64,000 bases of DNA, from NCBI RefSeq assembly GCF_028421645.1, contig NZ_CP116887.1, forward strand, positions 2,978,001-3,042,000, in the 5' to 3' direction. The stretch's first letter is position 1. Each line of letters begins with the position of its first letter. The stretch comes from Aneurinibacillus sp. Ricciae_BoGa-3 (GTDB taxonomy: Bacteria; Bacillota; Bacilli; Aneurinibacillales; Aneurinibacillaceae). The notes beneath the pieces are model-generated. The model was given only the letters and a program-made list of their open reading frames with translations, was not told where the DNA came from and ran no database searches. A program made the position numbers and the translations under genes. Below are positions 16,096 to 43,526 of the stretch, piece after piece.

Positions 16096-17322
16096 ATGAA
16101 AACTAATGAACAAGACTTAGAAATGTATCAAGCAGCTTTACAACTTGAATATCCTTGGTATGTCATCCGCAAGGAATTTGATTTGAACAATGGTCGTTTG
16201 GATATTTATTTAGATTTTGATCGTAAGGGCAACTTTCCCTGTGCCACTTGTGGTACAAAGAACCAGCCCTTCTATGACATCGTGGTAAAGGAACGTGTCT
16301 GGCGACACTTGGATTTCTGGCAGTATACCTCTTTTCTGCATGCTCCTCTTCCGCGTGTACGTTGCGAGCAATGCGATAAAGTGAAAGCTGCTTCTGTTTC
16401 TTGGTCTCGCCCAGGCAGCGGCTTTACGGAACTCTTCGAGTTTCGGGTATTAGAACTTGTAAAAGAAATGCCGGTGAATGCGGCTGCTCGTATTATGCGC
16501 GAACATGACACCCGTTTATGGCGTACTCTTCGCTTCTATGTCGATAAGGAACTCGAAAAGCAAGATTTGTCAAAGGTAACGAAAGTGGCCATTGATGAAA
16601 CATCCTCTAAAAGAGGACATCAATATGTGAGTTTAGTTGTTGACATACAACAGCGAAAAGTCATCTTTGCTACAGAAGGAAAAGACGCTTCTACACTGAA
16701 GCGATTTAAAGCTGAATTAGAGACGAAAAATGGAGCAGCAGAACAAATAGAAGAATTCTGCAGTGATCTATCTCCCGCTTTTATTCAAGGAGTGAAAACC
16801 CACTTTCCTAATGCAAATCATACCTTTGATAAGTTTCATATTTTGAAGCTGATTAATGAAGCGGTCGATGAGGTGCGTCGACAGGAACAAAGAGAAATAC
16901 CGGAACTAAAAAGAAGCCGGTATGTTTGGCTTAAAAATGAAAAGAATCTCAATGTAAAACAGAAAGAGCAGCTCATTCGCTTAAAAGAAATGAATCTGAA
17001 AACGACGAAAGCGTATCATCTAAAGCTGGCTTTTCAAGATTTCTGGACAAGGCCCGCCTTACTAGCCGATCTTTATTTGCAAGAATGGTACAACTGGGCT
17101 GTTCGCTCCCGGCTTGAACCGATGGTTCAAGTAGCGAAAACCATTAAGCATCACAAACAAGGCATTTTACAATGGTTTCAGTCGAAAATAACCAATGGTC
17201 TCTTGGAAGGCATCAATAGCCTTGTTCAAGCAGCAAAACGTAAAGCACGAGGCTATCGAACGATACAAAATCTTATGACGATGATTTACCTAATCGCTGG
17301 AAAGTTAGAAATAGCCAAGTAA
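16096..17322 (+). CDS. ISL3-family transposase
   Basis: 408-residue DDE transposase of the ISL3 type. The N-terminal zinc-binding region has CATCGTKNQ and VRCEQCDKV, a helix-turn-helix-like stretch follows (PVNAAARIMREHD), and the catalytic domain begins with VAIDETSSKRGHQYVSLVVD (first Asp) and continues with the second Asp region ending FCSDLSPAFIQG and FPNANHTFDKFHI. The last acidic residue lies in SKITNGLLEGINS. The length is normal and no frameshift is seen, so it may be active. I could not define the inverted repeats of the insertion sequence. It is inserted in the yaaH element. Confidence 0.88.
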   Translation: MKTNEQDLEMYQAALQLEYPWYVIRKEFDLNNGRLDIYLDFDRKGNFPCATCGTKNQPFYDIVVKERVWRHLDFWQYTSFLHAPLPRVRCEQCDKVKAASVSWSRPGSGFTELFEFRVLELVKEMPVNAAARIMREHDTRLWRTLRFYVDKELEKQDLSKVTKVAIDETSSKRGHQYVSLVVDIQQRKVIFATEGKDASTLKRFKAELETKNGAAEQIEEFCSDLSPAFIQGVKTHFPNANHTFDKFHILKLINEAVDEVRRQEQREIPELKRSRYVWLKNEKNLNVKQKEQLIRLKEMNLKTTKAYHLKLAFQDFWTRPALLADLYLQEWYNWAVRSRLEPMVQVAKTIKHHKQGILQWFQSKITNGLLEGINSLVQAAKRKARGYRTIQNLMTMIYLIAGKLEIAK

Positions 17323-18341: not shown

Positions 18342-18502
18342 TCTCTCCCCCCGTTCCTCTTTTAACGAACCTTTACCAGTAAATACCCAAAAGTTGAACT
18401 ATTATGCAACAAAAAGTTGAATTTAGGTCATCCCTTTTAGCAAACAAAAGCATTGTTCTGAACAAGGCAAAAATATTTTCTCTTATCTATGGGAGGTCTC
18501 AC

Positions 18503-19969
18503 ATGAGAGTTGCTCTATACATACGCGTTTCGACCGATGAACAGGCCAAGGAAGGCTTTTCCATCCCTGCTCAAAAAGAACGGCTTACCCAGTATGCACA
18601 ATCCCAAGATTGGGACTTACACGACTTTTATATTGAGGAAGGCTTCTCAGCCAAAGACACAAACAGACCTGAACTCCAACGAATGATGGACCATATACGG
18701 AAGAAAGAAATTGATATTGTTCTTGTTTATCGCCTGGACCGGCTGACCCGATCGGTCCTTGATTTATACCGGTTGTTGCAGGAATTTGAAAAGTATGAGG
18801 TGAAGTTCAAAAGCGCAACCGAAGTATACGACACCACAAGCGCTATAGGGCGCCTGTTTTTGACACTTGTAGCCGCCCTGGCGCAATGGGAAAGAGAAAA
18901 CCTTGCCGAGCGTGTACGATTTGGTATGGAGCAAATGGTGCTTCAGGAAAAACGACCGGGTGGGCCTCCCCCCTACGGATATAATCTTGTTGATCGAAAA
19001 CTGGTCATTAACGAGGATGAAGCCGCCGTTGTACGGTACATTTTTAACCGATATCTTAGTGGTGTGGGCATGAACAACATTGCAATCGAATGCAATCAGC
19101 TCGGTTACCGAACAAAATCAGGAAAAGATTTTAGCCGAATCGCAATTTATAATATCTTACAGAACCATGCGTATTTTGGAACGCTCCGGTGGAATTATCG
19201 CGAAGGAAAGCATACGGTAAACAACCCTGATGATTGGATTCTCTTCGAAGGTACCCACCCGGCCATAATCGATAAAGAAATGTTTAAGGCCGCTAAAAGG
19301 ATTCATGAAAATAACAAACCTAAACACCCTCGCCAAATCGGTTCTAATTATATATTTTCTAGCGTAGCCTACTGTGCCAGGTGCAACGCTAAAATGGTTG
19401 GCCACACTATGACAAAAAAGAACTCGGATTATATTATCCGTCGTTACATCTGTCAAAATGCCCGGATTAAAAAATGTGACTCCCCGGCTCTGACGGATTA
19501 TTTTGTGGAGGAGTCTTTCGTGGACAAATTAGATTCCATCATTGAATCCTATTCGAGCATTGCAGAAACAACGGAGTTGAAGAAACATAAGAAGTCTCCA
19601 ACGAATAAAAAGCACCTGGAATCCGAGCTGAAAAAGATAGGTGATCAGCGCAAAAGGTTTCAGATTTTGTTTTCCGAGGGATTAATAGACATTGAGGATT
19701 TACGTGAACGTGTGAACGAGCTTAGGGAGAAGGAAGAACGCATTAAAACTGAGCTCACATTGTATGAAGCCTATCAGGCTACTCTTTCGGAAAATGAAGT
19801 CATTGAGATAATCACAAATACCAAAAAAGTGTGGGAGAAGGCCAGTACCAAAGAGAAAAAACAAATGGTCTACATTCTCGTCAAGAAGATCGTTCTGGAC
19901 CTTCCAGATGAACAAAGGAAAAAGCGTAAAAATAAAAAAGTGATCATTAAAGAGATTGAGTTTAATTAA
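18503..19969 (+). CDS. Large serine recombinase (SpoIVCA/SprA type) of the yaaH element
   Basis: 488 residues, the size of SpoIVCA, the recombinase that excises skin from sigK. The start at 18503 follows GGGAGG by 6 bases; a longer frame to 18404 lacks such a site. The resolvase catalytic domain begins MRVALYIRVSTDEQAKEGFS with nucleophile Ser10, and has IDIVLVYRLDRLTRS and ALAQWERENLAERVR. The recombinase domain (about 160-270) contains PPPYGYNL and FEGTHPAIID. A zinc ribbon has CARCNAKMVG and a second Cys pair (YICQNARIKKCDSPAL). A long coiled coil lies in the C-terminal third (ELKKIGDQRKRFQ, LRERVNELREKEERI). The gene ends 10 bases before the attP arm and 35 bases before the crossover, typical for such elements. 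Confidence 0.93.
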   Translation: MRVALYIRVSTDEQAKEGFSIPAQKERLTQYAQSQDWDLHDFYIEEGFSAKDTNRPELQRMMDHIRKKEIDIVLVYRLDRLTRSVLDLYRLLQEFEKYEVKFKSATEVYDTTSAIGRLFLTLVAALAQWERENLAERVRFGMEQMVLQEKRPGGPPPYGYNLVDRKLVINEDEAAVVRYIFNRYLSGVGMNNIAIECNQLGYRTKSGKDFSRIAIYNILQNHAYFGTLRWNYREGKHTVNNPDDWILFEGTHPAIIDKEMFKAAKRIHENNKPKHPRQIGSNYIFSSVAYCARCNAKMVGHTMTKKNSDYIIRRYICQNARIKKCDSPALTDYFVEESFVDKLDSIIESYSSIAETTELKKHKKSPTNKKHLESELKKIGDQRKRFQILFSEGLIDIEDLRERVNELREKEERIKTELTLYEAYQATLSENEVIEIITNTKKVWEKASTKEKKQMVYILVKKIVLDLPDEQRKKRKNKKVIIKEIEFN

Positions 19970-43080: not shown

Positions 43081-43177
43081 CTTCAGACTCAGCTCCAATA
43101 CCTTGAGACAGTTTTAGTGTTACATCTCCACACATTGTAGGGTATTATAATAAACAGAAAAAGGAGATGACACAGTA

Positions 43178-43462
43178 ATGAGAATTAGCGAACCGGCAAA
43201 AGCTGAAGTTTTGCGCCTCTTTGAAGAGGAGAACATCAGCTGCCTGCGCATATTTTTTGGCGGATATGGCTGAGGAGGCCCGAAAGTAACGATGGCTCTG
43301 GAAGAGCCATATGACCAGGATATAATAGAAGAAATTGATGGTATCCGGATTGCAATCGATCCGATGGTCCATTCAACCGTTCAGGATGCTGAACTCGATT
43401 ATACCTCCTCACATTTCGGAGGCGGTTTTCAATTAAACGGTGGAAATACATCGGCCTGTTAG
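43178..43462 (+). CDS. HesB/IscA-like protein, probable selenoprotein (UGA at codon 32)
   Basis: A-type iron-sulfur protein of 94 residues if UGA 43271-43273 is read as selenocysteine (U). The frame opens at ATG 43178 behind AAGGAG: MRISEPAKAEVLRLFEEENI, then CLRIFFGGYG-U-GGPKVTMALEEP, and ends HFGGGFQLNGGNTSAC before TAG. In the family the U position is the first conserved metal-binding Cys (GYGCGGP). A selenoprotein branch of HesB-like proteins is known (TIGR01911). A perfect 8-base hairpin lies 19-37 bases past the UGA, where bacterial SECIS elements occur. The open frame after the UGA is fully conserved in pattern, so it is not a decayed pseudogene. selA/selB/selC are not in this window, so the machinery is unproven here; a point mutation or error in TGC/TGT is the alternative. 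Confidence 0.75.
43292..43310 (+). promoter_or_regulatory. Candidate SECIS hairpin
   Basis: ATGGCTCT, loop GGA, AGAGCCAT: eight perfect pairs with a G-containing 3-base loop. The loop starts 27 bases after the UGA. The stem lies in coding sequence (MALEEP), as bacterial SECIS elements do. Confidence 0.6.
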
Positions 43463-43467
43463 CTGAT

Positions 43468-43516
43468 AAAAGCCGGCAGTTGTTGCTTCCAGGGAAGCGA
43501 CCAGCTGCCGGCTTTC
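43468..43516 (+). terminator. Rho-independent terminator
   Basis: AAAGCCGGCAG plus CTTCC pair with GGAAG plus CTGCCGGCTTT, right after the selenoprotein stop. Confidence 0.8.
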
Positions 43517-43526
43517 TTATCGTATA

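Follow-up and report, generated by a model that had tools for sequence, protein, structure and literature searches.

The window analysed here is a 64,000-nucleotide stretch of the genome of Aneurinibacillus sp. Ricciae_BoGa-3. On its forward strand lies a short gene, in a frame (43178-43462) that holds a single TGA only, with the following features in and around it.

43160-43166, + strand: Shine-Dalgarno sequence AAAGGAG, strong, 11 nt before the ATG (from sequence)
43178-43462, + strand: predicted hesB-like selenoprotein gene, 94 aa with selenocysteine (Sec) as residue 32 and stop codon TAG at 43460-43462 (from translation, family matches and same-codon TGA in relatives)
43271-43273, + strand: in-frame TGA, read as selenocysteine; codon 32, in the place of the first conserved Cys of IscA/HesB (from sequence and alignments)
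43292-43310, + strand: putative SECIS hairpin AUGGCUCU-GGA-AGAGCCAU, with an 8 bp stem and a 3-nt loop that has G in its first two positions
43467-43517, + strand: GC-rich inverted repeat AAAGCCGGCAG ... CTGCCGGCTTT directly 3' of the stop, a possible terminator of low weight (from sequence)

Translation of 43178-43462 with the TGA as U gives MRISEPAKAEVLRLFEEENISCLRIFFGGYGUGGPKVTMALEEPYDQDIIEEIDGIRIAIDPMVHSTVQDAELDYTSSHFGGGFQLNGGNTSAC*. A promoter scan gave no more than a weak site (9/12), close to chance level. The inverted repeat at 43467-43517 was not listed by a terminator scan with a loop limit of 8, and the Rfam matches, which fall on this repeat, are all sub-threshold. The gene adjoins fadB/fadA, as does its relative L056. 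Elsewhere in the window, a transposase-like ORF (16096-17322) is followed by a large serine-recombinase-like ORF (18404-19969), both judged by eye from their translations.

The product gives full-length matches to three family models, each below its cut-off: TIGR00049 (5.8e-12, 45.7 bits vs. 58.8), NF038090 (7.6e-12, 45.4 bits vs. 85), and TIGR01911 (1.1e-11, 45.1 bits vs. 66.35). Matches to Pfam PF01521 (20.7 bits vs. 26.3) and to the ErpA, IscA, and SufA equivalog models (26-36 bits vs. 117-151) are likewise sub-threshold. Both curated models of Sec-containing HesB proteins, TIGR01911 and NF038090, also miss seven of the eight relatives scanned, and are therefore narrow. We class the window gene with the broad HesB-like selenoprotein kind, as a divergent member, and not with the curated TIGR01911 or NF038090 families. 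In a profile alignment with IscA-family proteins of solved structure (Aquifex AQ_1857, HI1723, and E. coli IscA), residue 32 falls on the first conserved Cys. A preliminary description of this DNA had proposed a HesB/IscA-like gene with an in-frame UGA at exactly this Cys, and translation, full-length family matches, and profile alignment bear this out. Its statement that the frame continues with the full family pattern to a natural stop stands for the frame, which reaches TAG, but not for the pattern, as the C-terminal C-G-C is reduced to a single Cys (SAC*).

An AlphaFold2 model built from a 14-row alignment reaches a pLDDT of 88.7; its C-terminal tail is poorly ordered. A model from the single sequence (pLDDT 41) was discarded. 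The best PDB matches found by Foldseek for the predicted model are IscA entries 1x0g, 1r94, and 1s98 (query TM 0.77-0.81), and SufA is also matched. Of the C..C-G-C ligand set of A-type carriers, the protein presents Sec32 and the single terminal Cys94, separated by 62 residues. The predicted IscA fold and the match of residue 32 to the first ligand Cys would suit an A-type Fe-S carrier of the regular kind, with Sec simply in place of the first Cys ligand, and Sec proteins with a full CGC motif in a different clade of the same class (L053, L054, and L076) make a Sec-containing carrier possible. Against this, a single terminal Cys is all that is left of the CGC motif in the window protein, its equivalog scores lie far below the ErpA, IscA, and SufA cut-offs, and the genome encodes a separate canonical A-type protein with C..CGCG, at C1:4145933. 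Loss of the CGC motif and the presence of this paralogue argue against an ordinary, housekeeping Fe-S carrier role, which is improbable, and the identification of the window protein as a regular carrier is considered doubtful.

The three proteins L053, L054, and L076 (genomes G026, G077, and G063) have Sec at the first ligand position and retain the C-terminal CGC motif in full. L053 passes the TIGR00049 and NF010147 (ErpA) cut-offs, and the hairpin of all three genes is in a shifted register. It is possible that these are Sec-containing true A-type Fe-S carriers.

Homologues were sought in 121 genomes, mostly of the same class (the window's genome and 120 related ones), and, with a four-row alignment as query, in a collection of genome contigs. 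At least one HesB homologue bearing an in-frame TGA is present in 27 of the 121 genomes. The TGA aligns with residue 32 in all 39 Sec rows (the window gene and 38 other genes, from many genera), and the remaining 24 homologue rows have TGC or TGT (Cys) at this codon. Oceanobacillus, Virgibacillus, Sediminibacillus, Robertmurraya, and other genera have homologues of this Cys type. Beyond the TGA, the window frame runs to the normal C-terminus of the family, with 50-51% identity to its closest relatives. In several genomes (G026, G063, G077, G103, and G104), Sec-type HesB paralogues number two or three and fall in different tree clades.

A selA match over cut-off accompanies the TGA form in 26 of 27 genomes, compared to 16 of the 94 others (Fisher p 2e-14, a value that overstates independence, the genomes being related). 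The sole TGA-form genome without a selA match, G008, belongs to the same family as the window's genome. Its copy (L072 / L103) has the TGA, but the reading frame breaks near codon 60; it is probably a relic of a selenoprotein that decayed once the Sec trait had been lost.

The bacterial SECIS element is a stem-loop that closely follows the UGA on its 3' side; the loop lies 16-37 nt downstream and has G at its first two positions. The window hairpin agrees with these constraints, its 8 bp stem and its GGA loop starting 18 nt and 26 nt after the UGA, respectively. Alone the hairpin is modest, being matched by 1.6% of synonymous-codon draws and 1.1% of window coding positions. A longer segment starting upstream of the UGA folds alternatively, and the hairpin was therefore judged by comparison and not by energy alone. 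The hairpin segment has a median of -8.8 kcal/mol in the 39 Sec rows and -1.05 kcal/mol in the 24 Cys rows (Mann-Whitney p 1e-9). In an alignment of 33 Sec genes, which omits six Sec rows in another register or with alignment problems, 82% of cells pair and double-sided changes occur at four pairs; sliding the partner by one column reduces pairing to 44-52%. The covariation score is 0.176 vs. 0.124 for shuffled alignments, with none of 500 shuffles reaching the observed score; relatedness inflates this test, so more weight is given to the contrast of Sec with Cys rows and to the control with the slid partner. A SECIS covariance model searched against the genome gave its only good score at the window gene (1.9e-10), although this gene is in the training set. 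The second and third matches (E 0.19 and 0.33) were taken as chance. The hairpin is conserved and covarying in Sec genes, and weak in their Cys homologues.

The 5.70 Mb genome comprises two contigs, and selA, selB, selD, and tRNA-Sec are all located on contig 1 with the window.

226045-226977, contig 1: selD, 403 bits, with an in-frame TGA of its own
227140-228510, contig 1: selA, 572 bits, directly after selD
323194-325080, contig 1: selB, 353 bits
just before selB, on the opposite strand, contig 1: tRNA-Sec, anticodon tca (UCA)

The preliminary description had named selA, selB, selC, and selD as the genes to look for; all are found on the same contig (with the tRNA-Sec anticodon tca), so the absence it held to be contrary evidence does not occur. 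A selA gene has also been reported for Aneurinibacillus terranovensis and A. tyrosinisolvens (PMC7996765). In the genome, three genes for the formate dehydrogenase alpha subunit score over cut-off, none with an in-frame TGA, and a search of the genome for a SelW-like match found none. The preliminary description calls selenoproteins uncommon in Bacillales, in line with a survey from 2006 that gives 3 selenoproteins (PMC1794560), but of the 121 genomes, which largely belong to the same class, 42 have a selA match over cut-off. The tRNA-Sec/selB pair sits just before rpsJ/rplC, and a tyrosine-recombinase-like ORF (L004:169-1278) lies directly upstream of it; tRNA-Sec may serve as an integration site. 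A cluster of tRNA-like matches is located on the 0.72 Mb second contig (G000:C2:206804-211738; L023 and L025).

A lone in-frame TGA in an otherwise intact ORF would also fit a fresh nonsense mutation, or a mis-called TGC or TGT, in an ordinary Cys-type hesB, and the G008 copy is a precedent for relics in this family. Such a pseudogene or sequencing error is very improbable here, given that 38 further genes, spread over many genera, carry the homologous TGA, and given a complete Sec machinery, a frame intact past the TGA to the normal C-terminus, and the conserved, covarying hairpin. A mis-read codon in particular is unlikely because independent genomes show the homologous TGA together with this hairpin. 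Machinery, homologous TGA codons, and SECIS uphold the selenoprotein reading first put forward in the preliminary description, and no evidence contradicting Sec decoding was found in the analysis. From the sequence data, we estimate at about 95% the probability that the UGA is decoded as selenocysteine in a member of the HesB-like family. SelB would decode the UGA at 43271-43273 with Sec-tRNA-Sec, the hairpin at 43292-43310 would direct this decoding, and SelA would make Sec from Ser-tRNA-Sec and selenophosphate supplied by SelD. Gene content, conservation, and covariation speak for these proposed steps.

In a tree of 62 rows, built on a short alignment and with many open forks, the window protein clusters with L027 and L028 (98/90), all three being Sec proteins, in a small separate clade. 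The sister clade of this group contains 21 rows (13 Cys and 8 Sec), and ars genes lie beside 12 of the 13 Cys rows and three of the Sec rows. The latter are in genomes from three different families:

L097:7881-8153, - strand: Sec-type hesB by an arsRBCDA operon (G022), at the operon end, its ATG overlapping the arsA stop
L094:128-400, - strand: Sec-type hesB at the end of or beside an arsRBCDA operon (G104)
L099:7928-8200, - strand: Sec-type hesB at the end of or beside an arsRBCDA operon (G103)

In L097, the order is arsR-arsB-arsC-arsD-arsA followed by the Sec gene, and ArsB, ArsC, ArsD, and ArsA pass curated cut-offs. The ars-linked Sec genes suggest a selenoprotein in arsenic handling; no published account of Sec-form hesB in ars operons was found in a literature coverage that is incomplete.

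These neighborhoods, Sec and Cys alike, hint at a role in metalloid (arsenite-type) binding or detoxification, with Sec and the C-terminal Cys forming a soft-metal site, and two reports place HesB-like genes in the ars operons of Bacillus CDB3 (PMC4562236) and Exiguobacterium (PMC8779447). For the window protein itself such a role is unlikely: the window gene and its closest relatives, L027 and L028, are all outside ars operons, no ars motif is found within the window, the genome yields no ArsD match, and the CC C-terminus of the ars-linked proteins is missing. With the gene beside fadB/fadA and no ArsD in the genome, an arsenic role for this protein can only be inferred.

The product would adopt the predicted IscA fold, with Sec32 replacing the first ligand Cys and C94 as the one C-terminal Cys. 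We infer, at roughly even odds, a selenolate/thiol pair that binds a soft metal, a metalloid, or a labile Fe-S species, or acts in thiol redox, rather than general Fe-S cluster delivery. A wider and distinctly speculative proposal is that HesB-like selenoproteins in this branch bind soft metals or metalloids through their selenolate, that the Sec form was recruited in some genomes as the terminal arsRBCDA gene, and that the window protein, a relative standing alone, shares this chemistry. The ars-operon link of Sec and Cys homologues offers a testable idea of HesB-like family function.

HesB-like selenoproteins are, as the preliminary description stated, a known class (TIGR01911), treated as an established family in the literature (PMC1794560, PMC5029168, and PMC11097638). 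The 2006 survey counted eleven (PMC1794560). By 2016 the number stood at 90 genes, from 86 organisms (PMC5029168), and they rank with the more common selenoproteins of bacteria. The family itself is thus already established, and what is new is the window gene as a member. It adds a divergent HesB-type selenoprotein, missed by both curated Sec-HesB models, from a Bacillales-type genome whose Sec machinery is complete; automatic annotation would be likely to shorten the gene or leave it out.

The window protein shares with the HesB-like selenoproteins of TIGR01911 (HesB_rel_seleno) and NF038090 (IscA_HesB_Se) the small IscA fold and Sec as the first ligand in G-U-G-G-P, within the UxGP motif of such proteins (PMC13188914). 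As in the window gene, their SECIS lies just downstream and the CGC motif is absent; the window protein differs in scoring below both cut-offs and in forming its small clade with two relatives. With the A-type carriers IscA, SufA, and ErpA (PF01521, TIGR00049) it has in common the fold, the overall alignment, and the position of the first Cys, but it has Sec for this Cys, a single Cys in place of CGC, and sub-cut-off scores throughout. The HesB-like selenoprotein of Methanococcus maripaludis, likened here by description, also contains Sec, but is archaeal; it has been labelled with 75Se, its disruption mutant is viable and fixes nitrogen, and its function, like that of HesB-like selenoproteins at large, is described as unclear (PMC11097638). 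The HesB proteins of ars operons (orf7 of Bacillus CDB3 ars1, PMC4562236; Exiguobacterium hesB, PMC8779447) belong to the same fold family, a likeness drawn from their published descriptions. The homologues linked to ars genes in this analysis make up the sister clade, the Bacillaceae ones being Cys-type (CCGP..CC) and encoded in ars operons, whereas the window gene is Sec-type and stands beside fadB/fadA.
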